Positions 3,181-10,182 of a stretch of 64,000 bases of DNA are shown piece by piece. Position 1 is the first letter of the stretch. Every line of letters begins with the position of its first letter. The position numbers were made by a program, and so were the translations under genes. The stretch is taken from contig NZ_AP024597.1 in NCBI RefSeq assembly GCF_019704315.1, positions 930,001-994,000 of the forward strand, read 5' to 3'. The stretch is from Stygiolobus caldivivus (GTDB lineage Archaea; Thermoproteota; Thermoprotei_A; Sulfolobales; Sulfolobaceae). The notes under the pieces were generated by a model, which saw nothing but the letters and a program-made list of their open reading frames with translations, had not been told where the DNA came from and made no database searches.

Positions 3181-3386
3181 CTATCTTGTAATTCCTTGGC
3201 AAAGCGGTATATCTCCTTTATAATATAACTTTTCGTCCTCTAAGTAAAACGTTTTTACCTCGACCCTGACCCCTTCTCTTAAAGCCCTGATGAAAGTCAT
3301 TGAAAAACACTTGTCTGTATCGAAATTAGGAGAAAAGCAGACTGCATCACTCCTAAAAACTAAGACCAGCAGGAGTGCAGAGTACC
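3181..3386 (-). pseudogene. sfsA: sfsA, 3' fragment cut off by IS607
   Basis: Reading the minus strand from 3386 down gives an open frame of 68 codons (YSALLLVLVFR, then DAVCFSPNFDTD, then GDIPLC) ending in TAG at 3181-3183. This is the C-terminal part of SfsA, with the family's F-P-N / DP-like segment and final I-P-L motif. It has no start of its own. Joined to the N-terminal part at 5307-5758 it restores an SfsA of about 219 residues, close to the usual length. The reading frame is otherwise intact, which suggests a recent insertion. Confidence 0.9.
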
Positions 3387-3500
3387 GTTTGTCCCTACAC
3401 TCTCATTTCAATCATTTTATCTTCATTCATGATCGAGTGTAGGGGCTTAGCCCTCAGCCACCTACCTAATTTTACGGTAGGCGGGTCATGGGGCTCCTTC
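3387..3500 (-). ncRNA. Probable TnpB omega RNA / right-end structured region
   Basis: In IS200/605 and IS607 elements the guide RNA overlaps the 3' end of tnpB and runs into flanking DNA. Here this stretch holds three short palindromes: CCCTACACTC (3393-3402) with GAGTGTAGGG (3435-3444), GGGCTTAGCCC (3443-3453), and CCTACC (3461-3466) with GGTAGG (3476-3481). If processed in the usual way, the guide would begin with GGTACTCTGCACTCCTGCTG, i.e. the sfsA 3' fragment. The fold and extent are inferred, not shown. Confidence 0.45.
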
Positions 3501-4633
3501 GAGCCCAACGGCACGGGGCTCACATGTCCAGCTCTCTTCAAGAGGTTATACAGAGCTACTACGTCCCTGTGCCACAGCTCACCTCCTTTCTCACACCTAC
3601 CCACCCTTAGAGCAGTGCTCCCATTGGGTGGGTAGAGAACATTACAGCCGTGTACTGGGCATGTGGAAGAAGTATATGCTGGGTTGACCAAAATCACTGG
3701 AACACCGAACTCCCTAGCCTTCTCGATAATAGCGTTCTTCATGGAAGAAAATGCGGAACGGTAAATTCTCAACCTAAGTTGAGAGTCCCTCACGTCCTTA
3801 ACCATGTGCTCTGGAGCTCTCTTAGGTAAGTCCTCCAAGATTATAACACTCCTGCTTTCAAAAGCCTCCATAACGACCAGCCTAGCCAACTTCCTCCTGA
3901 CGTCCACCTTCTTATCCCTCTCCCTTAACTTCCTTAACTTCCTCCTAGTTTCCCTGTCCTTAGTAGACTTACCAGTAGTAATTTTCCTCCTCCTATACTC
4001 ATAACCGAGAGTGGTCTTCTTCGTCATAGTCTCTAAAAGTACTGGTTTCCCGTGAACTAGGAGTGATATAGCGTTTTCATTTAAGTCCACTGGAATGTAG
4101 CCCTGAGGAGTGTATGGCTTTGGTTCATCCTTCTTAAAGACGATGTAGAGTTCTATTACGTTACCCTTTAAGAGCTTAAACCTAGCCTCACTTGCAACAC
4201 TCCAACCACTATTGTAGTACCTCCAGAATATTTTAGGGAAGAGCGGGGATAGGGAAACCCTACCGTGTTTTGTAACTATCGTTATTTTATCAAGGCTGAA
4301 CTTCCACACGTGGTCATCTAAGTGTACTGTGACCCTCCTTATCGTCGGCTTATCGGTATAAGCCCTACCCCTCTTTTTCATTTTCTCAAAGCTGTCCAAC
4401 CTTTCACTGGCGTCTTCACAAGCCGTGTAGATGTAATGTGACGGTAAGCCCTTATGTCTCTCCCTCTCCGCTTTGTATATACCCGCTTTGATCTTAGTGA
4501 ACGAGGTAGTGTTGTTCCACAACCCGTACTCTATCGCATCACCTAATATCTCCGTGTACTCCTCCTCAACCTCTTTCAGCTTCTTGTAGGTCTCGTAACT
4601 CACTTTAACCCTCAGCTTTACCGTCCTCTGCAT
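3395..4633 (-). CDS. tnpB: TnpB, RNA-guided nuclease of IS607-type element
   Basis: 412 residues, normal for TnpB. The RuvC-like active site is complete: D183 in YIPVDLNEN, E267 in VIILEDLP and D357 in WHRDVVALYN. The zinc-binding insert is unusual, with CPVHGC at 325-330 and only one later Cys (C347) before WHRD, so ligands may be C325, H328 or C330, C347 and H355. The start overlaps the end of tnpA by 29 nt, as is usual in IS607 elements. By family knowledge it cuts DNA guided by an omega RNA made from its own 3' region and helps retain the element at the donor site. It appears intact and potentially active. Confidence 0.93.
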   Translation of the reverse strand: MQRTVKLRVKVSYETYKKLKEVEEEYTEILGDAIEYGLWNNTTSFTKIKAGIYKAERERHKGLPSHYIYTACEDASERLDSFEKMKKRGRAYTDKPTIRRVTVHLDDHVWKFSLDKITIVTKHGRVSLSPLFPKIFWRYYNSGWSVASEARFKLLKGNVIELYIVFKKDEPKPYTPQGYIPVDLNENAISLLVHGKPVLLETMTKKTTLGYEYRRRKITTGKSTKDRETRRKLRKLRERDKKVDVRRKLARLVVMEAFESRSVIILEDLPKRAPEHMVKDVRDSQLRLRIYRSAFSSMKNAIIEKAREFGVPVILVNPAYTSSTCPVHGCNVLYPPNGSTALRVGRCEKGGELWHRDVVALYNLLKRAGHVSPVPLGSKEPHDPPTVKLGRWLRAKPLHSIMNEDKMIEMRV

Positions 4634-5246
4634 TTAACTCACCGATGACCTTTTTTACGCCCTGAATAAACAGTGTCTTCTTATGGCTTCTCATTCCGTA
4701 AATTTTTCCTGCAAATGAGGTTATGATAGAGATCAGGTCTTCTACGAGTTCCTGTGTTGCGTCCTTAGGCTCTTCACCAAAAACTACCTCAATTCTTACC
4801 CCCATTGCTGAGAAGAACTCCTCCAAGTATTCGAACCCGAACCTAGTAAGTCTGTCCTTGTATGTTATTAACACGACGTCTATACTTCTGCTCTCTACCA
4901 ATTTGAACAGCTTTAGCAGTCCCTTCCTCTGCGTATTTAACCCACTAGCAATGTCCTTCAACACTTCAACTACCTTATATCCCTTTGCCGTTGCGTAGTT
5001 TGTTAAGTAGTTTATTTGCCTCTCCAAGTCCTCCTTTTGATCAGCTGATGACACCCTAGCATAAATTACTGCCCTACTCTCCTCCCTCCTCTCTAGGTAT
5101 TTCTTAACCTCGCTGTAAGGTATCCTATACTTCCCACCCTCAGTTGTTACCACCCTAATCTTGCCTTCCCTTATCCACCTCAAGAGTGTTGAGTATGAAA
5201 TTCCTAACAGTTGGCAAGCCTCCTTAGGTCTCAGTAGTCTCTCCAC
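4605..5246 (-). CDS. tnpA: IS607-family serine transposase TnpA
   Basis: 213 residues. An N-terminal MerR-like helix-turn-helix (LLRPKEACQLLGISYSTLLRWIREGKI, about residues 4-30) precedes a serine-recombinase domain with the catalytic motif YARVSSADQ (nucleophile about S66) and the DRLTRFGFE segment. This order, small DNA-binding domain then resolvase domain, marks IS607 rather than large serine recombinases. It is the first gene of the element, and tnpB follows with overlap. No damage is visible, so the element may be autonomous. Confidence 0.95.
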   Translation of the reverse strand: MERLLRPKEACQLLGISYSTLLRWIREGKIRVVTTEGGKYRIPYSEVKKYLERREESRAVIYARVSSADQKEDLERQINYLTNYATAKGYKVVEVLKDIASGLNTQRKGLLKLFKLVESRSIDVVLITYKDRLTRFGFEYLEEFFSAMGVRIEVVFGEEPKDATQELVEDLISIITSFAGKIYGMRSHKKTLFIQGVKKVIGELNAEDGKAEG

Positions 5247-5306
5247 AAATTTAGTTAGAAATAAATGAACATAAAAAGATTTCTATTAACATAAAAAAGG
5301 ATTCAG

Positions 5307-5758
5307 CCCTCCTTCTTAAGCTCTATTAACTCTTCTAAATGTCTCTTCCCCCTTTTAGTTGGGGCGTCCGGGAACAGTGCCTTACCGTCCTTAACAAGAG
5401 TACACCCCTTCACTTCCACAAACGTATTATCGAACATAAAGTCTACCCTGCTCTTCCCTATCTTGACTTCCGCTTTGGCACCAGCTGGGAGGAACTTCCT
5501 CGCTACCTCATTGTGAATACTCGAGTCTGTTAACACCCACTCTTTACCGCTCCACGCCGCGGTGACCTGACAACTCGTCTTCCTCTTGCCTTGTGTTTCC
5601 CTTATGAGGACTTTATTTCCACGGTAAATGAGCTCTTTGAGCCTGCCCGGGTCGTGGAGGTGACATAACCTCCCTGACTTGGTTACCACCAAGAAGCGGT
5701 TAGGTCTCGACTCCACTACCTCTTCTTTCAACGGAGGGAAAGTGTAGACTAACATCAA
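5307..5758 (-). pseudogene. sfsA: sfsA, 5' fragment truncated by IS607
   Basis: SfsA (sugar fermentation stimulation protein family, DNA-binding/nuclease-like fold) starts MLVYTFPPL and carries the family segments [26 protein letters not shown] and VEVKGCTL. The frame runs cleanly into KKEG and then meets the IS607 end, giving a chance TGA at 5305-5303. The missing third lies beyond the element at 3181-3386. The truncated product lacks the C-terminal core and is probably inactive. The start faces a divergent promoter region shared with the winged-helix gene at 5818. Confidence 0.92.
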
Positions 5759-5788
5759 CCGTGTGGGGTAATTGTCCCCCTTTTAAAG

Positions 5789-5796
5789 TTTATATT
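5789..5796 (+). promoter_or_regulatory. TATA box for the winged-helix/ATPase operon
   Basis: TTTATATT lies about 25 nt before the ATG at 5818, the spacing expected for leaderless archaeal mRNA. This supports the internal ATG at 5818 over the upstream GTG at 5761. Confidence 0.6.
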
Positions 5797-5817
5797 CTAC
5801 TCTTACTAGAAATATTT

Positions 5818-6354
5818 ATGGTATCGAAAGATGAGGTGAAAAATGCTATACTGAAGATCACAGAAGGGAGGGGCGATATCGAGTTTACAAGGAACGGGCT
5901 GTACCAGCACACTGGTAAGTCAAAAAAGGTGGACGATATCCTTGAAGAACTTATAAAAGAGGGGTTTATAAAGGTGTCCAGGACTGCAGGAAGGGCTAAG
6001 TACTACGTATTAAACATAGAAGGGGCTAAACCGGTAGGGGAAGAGAAAGGGGTCAAGGGGGGAGATAAGGGCGATATGGAAGGGGTAAAGAGGGCGTTGA
6101 GGGAAGTATTAGAGGAGTACTTTGGTAAGCCTAAAGACTTCAAAGACCTAGATAGGGTATACGAGGAGATGAAGGACGATTTAGGCTATGTACAAATTAA
6201 AGACCTAAGGGAGCAACTCGGGTTGACCTTAGAGCAATTTATGGCTAAGTTCAGGGACTACGTCGTGAAGAACTACGAGTTAATCCCCGGCGGAAAGGAG
6301 GGGATAATAAACAGTGGGGCCGTCTACGGTATAATAAGGAAGAAAAAGGTGTAA
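5818..6354 (+). CDS. Two-domain winged-helix protein, partner of ATPase
   Basis: 178 residues from the ATG at 5818 (MVSKDEVKNAI). Residues about 1-65 look like a winged helix: helices, then KVDDILEELIKEGFIKV and a YYVLN wing. After a Gly/Lys/Glu-rich linker a second helical domain (FKDLDRVYEEM ... LREQLGLTLEQFMAKF ... AVYGIIRKKK) resembles another winged helix. This suggests DNA binding. It ends 6 bp before the ATPase gene, so the two are surely co-transcribed and their products probably work together. No named family is recognised. Confidence 0.75.
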   Translation: MVSKDEVKNAILKITEGRGDIEFTRNGLYQHTGKSKKVDDILEELIKEGFIKVSRTAGRAKYYVLNIEGAKPVGEEKGVKGGDKGDMEGVKRALREVLEEYFGKPKDFKDLDRVYEEMKDDLGYVQIKDLREQLGLTLEQFMAKFRDYVVKNYELIPGGKEGIINSGAVYGIIRKKKV

Positions 6355-6360
6355 ATATTT

Positions 6361-7677
6361 ATGCCGTGTGAGTTCGCTGATTATTCAGTAGCTAAATATG
6401 AAGACGAAAACGTGAAATTAGCAGGTAGGCTTTGGGTCGCTACGCTAAAGGAAATAAAGGGCGTAATTAACGAAGGGAAGGACGTCGTGATAACGATAGT
6501 GGGAAAGCCCGGGATGGGTAAGACCACTGTACTTAACGCTGTAAAAAAGGACCTGAAGGGCCACTTTATAATCTACTTAGACTTGGTAGGGAACAGCCTC
6601 TTGTCCAAGACCGCCTGGTACTACATCGAAAACACAAACCTCGTAGAGCTCATCAGGAGTAAAGCTTACAGTGTATTGGAAGGACATAAAAAGGACATAG
6701 GTTATACCTTCATGGCTTCTCTGAGTAAGGAATTTAACAACTGGTTAAAACACCTTTGCGAAAAAAGGAAGTGGCATGACGAATGGGGGTATGCGGAGAG
6801 GGCTTACTGTATGCAGTACGATAGGGACATAAACGGGGTCATCGCGTTAATAAACGACCTGTCCAGGTTAGGTAAAACGGGGGTATTGTTAGACGAGCTT
6901 AAGGCTGATCAGGGCGTACTATATGAACTACACAAGTTAATCAATGAAGTGAGAGTCCCTATAGTAATTACCGCAGTCCCTGAAGTCATTACAGAAATAA
7001 AGGACAAGGCTTTACTTAGACGGCTGAACGAGTTTAAGAGGGAGCTGATACTTACCGAAGAGGACAAGAAGGAGATACTGTCTACTTATTGTCCCGATTA
7101 CGCTGAGGAACTTTTCTCCGACCAACAGATCCGCCGATCAGATACTGTGAGCTCCCTCATCGATATAGCGAGGATTACCGTCAGGTCGGCGTTAGAAGAA
7201 TGTGAGGACGAGGAATTTAATAAGGACAAGTGCGTAAGGGAAAAGTTAACTCAGAGGGATGAAGTCGCAGACCCGCAGGACGCGTCCAGGAAGTTAGAGG
7301 TGGCTATTAGGAGCGGTTTGCTGGAACTAAAGGACAAATTTAACATTAAATATGTCCACAAGACGGGTAGGAGGATAAATGAAAAACACGTAACTGTAGA
7401 TATTTTCTTTATAAAAGATGACATAGCATATTTAGGTGATGTGAAAATAAGCAATGACTTGACACTGGATAACATCAGTAATATGAAGAAGTTGATAGAC
7501 TATGAGAAGTACCAAGGCTACCCGGTCAAGAAGTTCCTTGTGACCAACGTGACTAACGTCGACCTACCGGGGTTTAAAGTCGTCCCGGTGGACCTCGAAA
7601 CCATTAATAAAGTAGTGAACGGCGACGTAGATAGACGGAATAAACTAGTAGAGGAGATTTTGCGGGAATTGGGTTGA
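6361..7677 (+). CDS. P-loop ATPase with C-terminal PD-(D/E)XK-like domain
   Basis: 438 residues. Walker A is GKPGMGKTT at 48-56; Walker B is GVLLDE at 174-179, followed by a VITAVPE strand near 205 and an LLRRLNEF arginine patch near 220, as in archaeal AAA/STAND-type ATPases. The last 110 residues read VTVDIFFIKDDIAYLGDVKIS then helix and strand, matching the D...(D/E)xK pattern of restriction-like nucleases. The gene follows the double winged-helix gene with a 6-bp gap. Likely roles are nucleic-acid sensing or cutting (defence) or plasmid/chromosome maintenance. The nuclease reading is an inference from motif shape. Confidence 0.75.
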   Translation: MPCEFADYSVAKYEDENVKLAGRLWVATLKEIKGVINEGKDVVITIVGKPGMGKTTVLNAVKKDLKGHFIIYLDLVGNSLLSKTAWYYIENTNLVELIRSKAYSVLEGHKKDIGYTFMASLSKEFNNWLKHLCEKRKWHDEWGYAERAYCMQYDRDINGVIALINDLSRLGKTGVLLDELKADQGVLYELHKLINEVRVPIVITAVPEVITEIKDKALLRRLNEFKRELILTEEDKKEILSTYCPDYAEELFSDQQIRRSDTVSSLIDIARITVRSALEECEDEEFNKDKCVREKLTQRDEVADPQDASRKLEVAIRSGLLELKDKFNIKYVHKTGRRINEKHVTVDIFFIKDDIAYLGDVKISNDLTLDNISNMKKLIDYEKYQGYPVKKFLVTNVTNVDLPGFKVVPVDLETINKVVNGDVDRRNKLVEEILRELG

Positions 7678-7848: not shown

Positions 7849-8766
7849 ATGGGAGTTAAGGAGGTAAAGCCTTGGGGTGTTAACGTACCCTTTATAATCC
7901 TCTCAATAGTCTATTGGGCCTTAGGCGGACTTTCACTCCGCTTTGACGTCTCGTTGCACCCTTACTTTATGTTACTCGGTGCGTATTCCCTCTTCTTCGG
8001 CATGGTGCAGAGGCTCTTTTTCCCCGCTACAAAATATTTCCCGCTACAAATATTGACCCTAGTCCTCCTAGCAGTCCCCATGTACTATTTCCAAATTTTT
8101 GCGTCTTTAACACTATCACTTACCGAGGTATGGGCACTAATCGACGTTAAGAGATACGGTGGTAAGTCCCCTGTAAACATTTTAGTCCTATCCTCACCCC
8201 CTCTGTCTGTAATAGCTTGGCTCCTACATCAGGACCTCTGGGTGATGATAATACCCCTACTCACCTATACCTTGGGTGTCAATATAGGGGTGTTTACCTC
8301 GAATTTGCGTACCAGACCGTTATTCGGGGTAAAACAGATCCCCCTCTTGGCAACGGTACTCCTCACCGCGGTGTTTCACTGGTTATATTACGTTATAGGT
8401 ATAATCTACCTCTTAGCTATCTTTAGGTTTACTGTCGGAAAGGGTAACTTGAGTGCATATATCACATTATTTTCCGTCTCCGTCTCACCCCTCATGAGCT
8501 TGCTCTTAGGGGACGTATTTCACTCGTTCTTTGTGGGAGTGATGTCACCTTTATTCTTCTCTTGCATTGTTTACTCCACCAGCAGGTACAATTACGGCTT
8601 GGTCTGGGTACCCGTACTCCTTTCCTTCGCTTCTTATCTCTCTAGAGACGTTAGCTTAGCACTCGCAGGTCTAATTTGGGCTTTAGCTTTCCTTTCCTTC
8701 CTCTATTTAATAAAGGACAGTTTTACACTTCACACAATAAGGTATGGAGTCTCAAGGCTAAAATAA
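7849..8766 (+). CDS. Multi-pass membrane protein, family not recognised
   Basis: About 305 residues with roughly eight to nine hydrophobic segments and very few charges outside loops. An upstream GTG at 7810 is possible, but the ATG at 7849 (MGVKEVKPWGVNVPF) follows a CTTTATAC stretch and starts just before the first helix. No transporter, respiratory or enzyme motif stands out; a few conserved-looking His and Trp residues lie in helices. It is a single gene followed by an inverted-repeat element. Confidence 0.7.
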   Translation: MGVKEVKPWGVNVPFIILSIVYWALGGLSLRFDVSLHPYFMLLGAYSLFFGMVQRLFFPATKYFPLQILTLVLLAVPMYYFQIFASLTLSLTEVWALIDVKRYGGKSPVNILVLSSPPLSVIAWLLHQDLWVMIIPLLTYTLGVNIGVFTSNLRTRPLFGVKQIPLLATVLLTAVFHWLYYVIGIIYLLAIFRFTVGKGNLSAYITLFSVSVSPLMSLLLGDVFHSFFVGVMSPLFFSCIVYSTSRYNYGLVWVPVLLSFASYLSRDVSLALAGLIWALAFLSFLYLIKDSFTLHTIRYGVSRLK

Positions 8767-9099
8767 GTGATTATACTTTGTCAGGTATTTAAGGGCTGAG
8801 GTCTTCTCGTTAATACACTCACTGTTTAAGTCGCCTTGCCCTTTAAACTTTGATTGGTCATAATGACCTCAGTACCTAATTGTATGAAGTATACCGTAAC
8901 AGTCTGTCATAGTGAATTGGTTAGTAACAGTATGTCACGCTCAAGATGTTTTAGAAACATAAGGGCGTAGGCCTCGTGATGTCGGGTTCGAAGCAGGTCC
9001 GTGATAGGTCATCTTTAGCTTATTGATTAAGGGCTAAGCTACGTATACGCTCATAAAAATTGGAGTTGGTGGAGATTAAAGCCTGAAGTAGCAAATGGA
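8767..9099. other. Intergenic with a degraded short inverted-repeat element
   Basis: No gene is seen. The first 100 bp are a decayed copy of the family-1 inverted repeat (8772-8868). Further on is a pair of direct repeats, GTAACAGTCTGTCA and GTAACAGTATGTCA (about 8897 and 8924), of unknown meaning. Confidence 0.6.
8772..8868. repeat. Family-1 inverted-repeat element, copy A (degraded)
   Basis: It begins TATACTTTGTCAGG with a TTCTCGTTAA inner stretch and ends CTTGCCCTTTAAACTTTGATTGGTCATA, matching both ends of better copies (for instance 36931-37033), but with many changes. Confidence 0.6.
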
Positions 9100-10182
9100 C
9101 TAAAGTGCAGTACGGCGTGTTCTCCTCCTCGGAGCATCTTCATCGATGCTTACGTAATCTAGTTCTCTTTCAGCGTTTATCTCCCTAATAGCGAGTTTAA
9201 TAGGCTTGTCTATACTAATTTCGACCTCTCCGTGTTCAGGGTGGTTAATCTTAACTTTTTGGGAACTAATAAGGTAATACCTATATCCATTTCTGTTCGA
9301 AGGTATATTACGGAACGGAATTTCAAATGGGTCACGCGGTACTATATCCGCTATAGTAAGTAGGGGAAACTTGACCTTCACCGGTATAGTCCCTACAACA
9401 ACTTTCATTTTAATTTCTGTATTTGGCGGGAACAAGTTGACAAGATATATCTGGTGTTCTCCGTATCTTACTTCTAACCCTTCAGGTCTTACGGAGTTTC
9501 TGACAACCTCAGATACAGTCTCCTCGTTTAGGGTAATGAACGGGTCTTTGAAAATTAGGACTTTCCAGTTTCCTGCCTCCTTTATGTGAGCAATAGAGTT
9601 ACCTAACAATGATTCAAGGTCTTTAATGTCTTCTTCGCTAGGTGACGTTATAGTGATGGTGGTGTTATCATTTACCTCTACGTTCAAATCTAACATTTCC
9701 TCTAGAATTCTACCCAACTTTTCCAATGCGGTCTTCTCTATTCTTTTCTTGATCTCCTTCTCTAGGTCAGTCTTTAACTGTTCTTCGTTGTTGAAGGCAA
9801 TGTAATCAAATATCACCTCACCTTGGACTCTTACCCTCAAGTTCTTAAAATTATTAGGCAAAGAGTAATTCAACTCCCATATGTGTTTATCAAAACCGAG
9901 AGTCTGTCTTATTGCCTCTTCGCTTGAATTTAAACTTAGTATGGCATGGGATCTTAGTACAAAGGCCTTGTTATTATCCACGCCTATAACGTAGCTGCTC
10001 CCTTTTTTAGGGCAAGTCACGATTATGTACTCTGACAGGAGGGAAGAACTGCAGTTACCCTCACGTATCTTGTCCATCAGGCCGATGAATGCTGAGTACA
10101 TGCCTTCGTTTGCGAAATTAGAATAAATGTAAACCATTTTTTTACCATTAAGTATTTCATAAAGTTCTTCTAAGGCTAACAT
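9100..10182 (-). CDS. Hypothetical protein, about 360 residues, Arg-rich tail
   Basis: Start taken at 10182 (MLALEELYEIL) because a TATA-like element lies about 28 nt before it; the longer frame starts at 10203. No transmembrane segment or signal peptide is seen, so it is probably cytoplasmic. The N-terminal third looks alpha/beta (KKMVYIYSNFANEG, EYIIVTCPKKG). The middle has a charged helical stretch (KTDLEKEIKKRIEKTALEKLGRIL). The C-terminal half is beta-rich and ends in DEDAPRRRTRRTAL, a basic tail that could touch nucleic acid. No family is recognised. Confidence 0.75.
   Translation of the reverse strand: MLALEELYEILNGKKMVYIYSNFANEGMYSAFIGLMDKIREGNCSSSLLSEYIIVTCPKKGSSYVIGVDNNKAFVLRSHAILSLNSSEEAIRQTLGFDKHIWELNYSLPNNFKNLRVRVQGEVIFDYIAFNNEEQLKTDLEKEIKKRIEKTALEKLGRILEEMLDLNVEVNDNTTITITSPSEEDIKDLESLLGNSIAHIKEAGNWKVLIFKDPFITLNEETVSEVVRNSVRPEGLEVRYGEHQIYLVNLFPPNTEIKMKVVVGTIPVKVKFPLLTIADIVPRDPFEIPFRNIPSNRNGYRYYLISSQKVKINHPEHGEVEISIDKPIKLAIREINAERELDYVSIDEDAPRRRTRRTAL

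Follow-up and report, generated by a model that had tools for sequence, protein, structure and literature searches.

Locus organization

The DNA analysed here, referred to throughout as the window, is a stretch of 64,000 nucleotides from the thermoacidophilic archaeon Stygiolobus caldivivus, corresponding to positions 930001-994000 of a chromosome of 2,958,410 bases. The locus under study consists of two genes on the forward strand that are separated by a gap of 6 bp and preceded by a TATA-like stretch.

5781..5796, + strand: TATA-like stretch TTTTAAAGTTTATATT, recognized in the sequence approximately 22-37 bp upstream of the gene 1 start codon
5818..6354, + strand: gene 1, tandem winged-helix protein of 178 aa, with an ATG start at 5818
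6361..7677, + strand: gene 2, AAA+ ATPase of 438 aa with a PD-(D/E)XK-like C-terminal domain

The stretch at 5781-5796 is the probable promoter of a leaderless or nearly leaderless transcript, in line with the original prediction that the genes have a promoter of their own, and TATA-like stretches at similar upstream positions were noted in many relatives by unscored inspection by eye. An identical sequence, AATATTTATG, lies ahead of the start codons of both genes (window 5811-5820 and 6354-6363). A second copy of the pair, 33% identical to that of the window, is located at 2143233-2145022 on the same chromosome. At window positions 3395-5758, an IS607-type element on the minus strand (serine resolvase 4605-5246, TnpB 3395-4633) interrupts sfsA, the first part of which (Pfam SfsA and SfsA_N) occupies 5303-5758 and the apparent C-terminal part of which continues past the element, near 3200-3390.

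Predicted structure of the gene 1 protein

The double winged helix originally proposed for gene 1 was borne out by a structure model (mean pLDDT 81.5) in which a helix and a linker of low confidence (residues 69-85) connect two winged helices.

5818..6015, + strand: N-terminal winged helix, residues 1-66 (AF2 secondary structure, VIA-align and alignment)
6076..6351, + strand: linker helix and C-terminal winged helix, residues 87-178 (model, alignments and PHROG)

The N-terminal winged helix, which matched winged-helix proteins with VIA-align Z scores of up to 9.2, was variable across the family in alignments. Residues 87-178 were the most conserved part of the protein and the part that occurs alone in viruses and in plasmid pDL10; PHROG 38850 matched residues 94-177 with an E value of 3e-28. 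Fold searches with gene 1 returned generic winged helices. The tandem winged-helix protein ScpB, a weak top Foldseek match (TM approximately 0.3), was dropped as a relative, as was the origin-binding protein WhiP, to which no test linked gene 1.

AAA+ domain and nuclease-like tail of the gene 2 protein

The gene 2 protein was modelled with a pLDDT of 91.9 as an AAA+ domain (approximately residues 1-300) followed by a C-terminal alpha/beta domain.

6502..6528, + strand: Walker A, GKPGMGKTT, residues 48-56, with little or no variation among 32 sequences
6880..6897, + strand: Walker B, residues 174-179, the last two (D178-E179) invariant in 32 sequences
7018..7023, + strand: R220-R221, arginine pair invariant by conservation
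7261..7677, + strand: C-terminal nuclease-like domain, approximately residues 301-438 (model secondary structure, conservation and DUF234 profile match)
7297, 7399, 7438 and 7444, + strand: candidate catalytic residues E313, D347, D360 and K362, respectively (conservation and DUF234 register)

The features expected of an AAA+ protein, namely Walker A, Walker B and the AAA+ fold, are all present. Both Walker motifs had been predicted from the window sequence, and their key residues (G48, P50, G51, G53, K54, T55, D178 and E179) proved to be invariant across 32 relatives. R220-R221 sit where an AAA+ arginine finger is expected and may serve as one. The nearest folds to residues 1-300 were those of ORC/Cdc6, MuB, TnsC and DnaA, with Z scores of 13-15; the matches to ORC/Cdc6, MuB and TnsC extended over approximately 220-240 residues at approximately 12-17% identity, and the nuclease-like tail had no counterpart in the aligned region. 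Searches with the whole protein returned no Pfam, NCBIfam or PADLOC family above cut-off, the score for Pfam ATPase_2 being 19.7 bits against a cut-off of 33.2.

The pattern VDIFF...GDVK, previously read as that of a PD-(D/E)XK nuclease, includes three of the candidate catalytic residues, with D347 in VDIFF and D360 and K362 in GDVK. In the model, E313 lies in the first helix of the tail, and D347 and D360-x-K362 lie on the strands that follow; the predicted order of helix, strands, helix and strand is the PD-(D/E)XK topology. The tail of one relative, the single copy L079, carries a textbook PD...EVK. When a profile of 11 tail sequences was aligned with DUF234 of Sulfolobaceae ATPases, the catalytic positions fell in register at an hhalign probability of 77.9 and a score of 37.2, compared with maxima of 5.1 and 22.2 for 100 column-shuffled decoys and values of 0.4 and 14.5 for the reversed tail profile. 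DUF234 belongs to the PD-(D/E)XK superfamily. The Pfam DUF234 model did not match the window protein, a Pfam search with the tail alone returned nothing credible and a PDB profile search with the tail returned a single weak, chance-like match. The fold-library searches were performed with the whole gene 2 model and were dominated by matches to the AAA+ domain. Topology, candidate residues and the DUF234 profile match agree with a nuclease-like reading of the tail, and no housekeeping family claims the protein; a tail of another fold and a clear housekeeping match were the two outcomes that the original prediction had named as speaking against it.

Distribution and neighborhood of the pair

Conservation of the pair, proposed earlier as a check, was evident among the 31 Sulfolobaceae genomes, 29 of which carried gene 1 and the same 29 gene 2; both genomes without the pair belong to one genus, and 13 genomes contained two pairs. 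When 398 genomes of the phylum were searched by profile, full-length relatives of gene 2 were confined to Sulfolobaceae, and the matches elsewhere covered the Walker region only. Each of the 42 gene 2 homologues in Sulfolobaceae was immediately preceded by gene 1 on the same strand, an arrangement that is far from chance and that supports the two-gene unit first seen in the window. Neither gene 2 nor the full pair was present among the plasmid and virus records searched. Thus, of the two roles originally suggested for the pair, defence and plasmid control, the second was not upheld, while defence is the best-supported role.

Core pairs (defined below) had no conserved neighbors and accessory pairs had none at most loci, including that of the window. 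The core pair of genome G042, which we take to be S. acidocaldarius, adjoins a photolyase-like gene. Matches to PADLOC families numbered 150 in accessory neighborhoods versus 45 in core neighborhoods, a difference much of which may be due to L087 and L088, related loci with cas genes. Since these loci may drive the difference and CARF/Csx1 matches also occur in core neighborhoods, no general enrichment of accessory over core loci in defence genes is claimed.

Core and accessory copies

In the gene 2 tree, a core clade was separated from two accessory clades, A (which includes the window copy) and E, with L077 and L079 as single copies on long branches. The core copy, which is present in nearly all Sulfolobaceae and has a tree that largely matches genus groups, is vertically inherited. 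All 27 core copies examined kept E313 and had lost at least one of D347, D/E360 and K362; D347 was replaced by G or S in 26 of them, and the other core copy (L067) kept D347 and had lost the residues at 360 and 362. E, D, D and K were all present in each of 14 accessory copies, and a complete set with E at position 360 was found in L079. Loss of the nuclease residues is most simply placed on the core lineage. Core copies probably cannot cut, and accessory copies are probably nuclease-competent. Since the near-universal copy is the one that has lost nuclease residues, the role of the core pair may not be cutting.

Accessory copies were patchy among genomes. Clade E relics were noted in G090 and G131, the former (L151) with a decayed nuclease tail and the latter (L152) with a truncated gene 1. 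Movement of accessory pairs between genera by horizontal transfer was indicated by the gene 2 copies of L087 and L088, which come from two genera and are 83% identical, the core copies of the same genera (G042 and G011) being 56% identical. The DNA common to L087 and L088 consists of the pair and short flanks that include the 3' end of a neighboring CARF gene. Estimates of dN/dS for gene 2, available for two pairs of loci only, were 0.08 for L085/L086, indicative of strong constraint, and 0.50 for the recently transferred L087/L088.

Several features of these two loci were noted. The L087 pair is flanked by a CRISPR array and cas genes on one side and by a PIN-domain gene on the other, and the L088 pair adjoins cas3 and cas8a genes. 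The array in L087 (2933-8000) contains at least 66 repeats and lies beside genes for Cas5 of type III-D, Csm3 and Cas6; a CARF/Csx1-type gene (8498-9106) also lies there, next to the accessory pair. The CARF 3' end, 167 bp in length, is 94.6% identical between L087 (8947-9113) and L088 (8890-9056), and because this sequence stands beside both pairs, the CARF gene and the accessory pair probably moved jointly between the two genera.

Stand-alone C-terminal winged helices on mobile elements

The C-terminal winged helix of gene 1 was found as a stand-alone protein in plasmid pDL10, rudivirus ARV3, bicaudavirus ATV2 and the 50-kb contig of a metagenomic virus (L101), the protein of the last being 66% identical. 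In tblastn searches, gene 1 matched ARV3 and ATV2 over residues 110-175 at 39% identity with E values of 4e-11 and 1e-10. In a tree of the winged-helix domain, the sequences from pDL10, the metagenomic virus and a chromosomal relic nested inside clade A, those from ATV2 and ARV3 grouped with clade E and none of the mobile-element sequences fell inside the core clade. This grouping held after removal of two long-branch sequences, and a single origin of the captured domains was rejected (p-AU 6e-37). Best identities followed the same pattern, with values of 73% to clade E versus 41% to core for ATV2 and 72% to clade A versus 39% to core for the metagenomic virus; the pDL10 sequence was more divergent (50% at best versus 45% to core). 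These results indicate at least two captures, each time of the C-terminal half and each from an accessory clade with intact nuclease residues.

A stretch of 307 bp over the captured gene is 88% identical between ATV2 and ARV3 (L065 2423-2729 and L144 2210-2506, from the bicaudavirus and the rudivirus). In view of this identity, the two viruses probably exchanged the gene.

The captured gene of the metagenomic virus lies under a 31-bp pattern with a TATA box, TTTCCTAAC...TTTAAAT, which occurred at four sites in that virus and at none in 200 shuffles. In ARV3, the box of gp05, which is common to gp02 and gp03, resembles that of the metagenomic virus. A regulatory sequence shared around a strong promoter has been used as a criterion by which to recognize anti-defence genes in viruses of archaea (PMC11065993), and the winged-helix gene of the metagenomic virus fits this criterion by its promoter sequence. 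Four genes at 7820-9154 of L101 carry the 31-bp pattern, and the same criterion makes the other three, whose products measure up to 141, 91 and 146 aa, candidates for an anti-defence role.

Relation to described systems

A pair with the same architecture, SiRe_2374/SiRe_2373, was described as an abortive-infection-like prediction by Bhoobalan-Chitty et al. (2024; PMC11065993), who likened such pairs to OLD and PARIS and predicted ADG.51 (arCOG03737) of ARV3 and ATV2 to be their antagonist. By its sequence, the window pair belongs to this already predicted type. Both consist in Sulfolobales of a tandem winged-helix gene and an AAA+ ATPase gene with a PD-DExK tail, and in both the winged-helix gene is homologous to ADG.51. 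The earlier statement that no family name is known for the pair is only partly correct in view of this publication, and the defence hypothesis that the published study reached from ARV3 and ATV2 is the same as that reached here. What is new in the present analysis is the division into core and accessory copies and the repeated capture of the partner domain. The present assignment differs from the published one in that the viral homologues, said to hold the N-terminal winged helix (PMC11065993), align here to the C-terminal winged helix of gene 1.

A further difference concerns the nuclease, since the published example is very probably a core copy, whereas the window copy is an accessory one with all four residues. 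The sole copy in genome G155, which we take to be S. islandicus Y.N.15.51, is of the core type, with neither D347 nor K362 present. The published example is therefore probably nuclease-dead, as judged via the G155 copy rather than SiRe_2373 itself.

Archaeal proteins that combine ATPase_2 and DUF234 (PF01637 and PF03008) resemble gene 2 in having a P-loop ATPase with a PD-(D/E)XK-like tail, the tails matching by profile with catalytic positions aligned. These proteins carry ATPase, winged helix and tail in one chain, whereas in the window pair the winged helices are encoded by a separate gene; moreover, profile comparison gave no alignment of the ATPase domains, and the score of the window protein is below the Pfam cut-offs. 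PARIS and OLD likewise couple an ATPase to a nuclease. The latter systems use Toprim nucleases and ABC-type ATPases, as opposed to the AAA+ and PD-(D/E)XK domains of the window pair, and models of the PARIS/OLD ATPases or Toprim nucleases gave no PADLOC or Pfam match to the window protein.

Proposed function and alternatives

The window pair is, with somewhat better than even probability, a nuclease-competent accessory defence module that is countered by captured partner domains. Since viruses and a plasmid have copied half of the partner at least twice, apparently to block the pair, its role is probably antiviral. We infer contact between the two proteins, nuclease activity, antiviral action and blocking by captured domains as follows. 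Gene 2 would form an ATP-dependent assembly of the AAA+ type, bearing a PD-(D/E)XK nuclease, and the C-terminal winged helix of gene 1 would bind this assembly and either keep it inactive or direct it; DNA, either an operator or a target, would be read by the variable N-terminal winged helix. Infection would upset the complex, DNA of the virus or of the host would be cut by the nuclease, and a captured C-terminal winged helix would block activation by occupying the ATPase instead of gene 1.

The alternatives overlap in part. A strict toxin-antitoxin or abortive-infection system, the version preferred by the authors of PMC11065993, would have gene 2 as a cell-killing nuclease toxin, with gene 1 serving as its antitoxin and autorepressor; the winged helices captured by viruses or plasmids would then be antitoxins as well. 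The gene order and the DNA-binding partner adjoining a nuclease are in keeping with such a system, and mimicry of an antitoxin by a virus has been demonstrated for another system, Phd-Doc (PMC11065993). However, gene 2 of the core kind keeps gene 1 although its nuclease looks dead, and the pair is thus maintained without a nuclease toxin; furthermore, only TATA-like boxes and no conserved operator were noticed by eye in the upstream sequences, and a full AAA+ engine exceeds the needs of a simple type II toxin. We consider this version unlikely. Somewhat more doubtful is a part in chromosome or replicon maintenance, in which an AAA+ protein of the ORC/TnsC kind, partnered by a winged-helix protein, would serve replication, repair or segregation; its nuclease would process DNA, and the captured domain would let mobile elements recruit it. 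Such a part would suit the presence of the core copy in nearly all Sulfolobaceae with a tree largely by genus group, the nearness of the AAA+ domain to initiators and transposition regulators and the photolyase-like gene beside the G042 core pair, but not the want of fixed neighbors around core pairs, the patchy occurrence, decay to relics and passage between genera of the nuclease-intact form, or the derivation of captured domains from accessory clades rather than the core.

The stand-alone winged helices could also be simply viral DNA-binding regulators, that is, viral and plasmid transcription factors that derive from gene 1 but make no contact with gene 2. Their small size and winged-helix fold are in keeping with this, as are the MarR-like regulators returned by the published structure comparison (PMC11065993). 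Against this stand at least two captures, always of the same half and always from nuclease-intact clades, and the presence of the gene in two viruses under the early-gene promoter type that marks anti-defence genes; we give this explanation as little credence as a maintenance role.

For the family as a whole, we tentatively suggest, at rather less than even probability, that one system exists in two forms and that several unrelated viruses and a plasmid repeatedly captured the C-terminal winged helix, from accessory pairs only, as a counter-measure. In this reading, the core pair, present almost everywhere and with a dead nuclease, would have a sensing or housekeeping function, and the patchy accessory pairs, with an active nuclease, would provide defence against mobile elements. 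The published hypothesis regards all of these pairs as toxin-like nuclease systems of a single kind, whereas the present results distinguish core pairs, which probably do not cut, from accessory pairs, which probably do. The accessory copies are accordingly the ones to test. The viral antagonist is predicted to be a C-terminal winged helix that fits the accessory clade of its origin, and an antagonist of such clade specificity would allow direct tests of the system in laboratory strains. The core/accessory split, together with capture from nuclease-intact clades, makes the pair worth testing.
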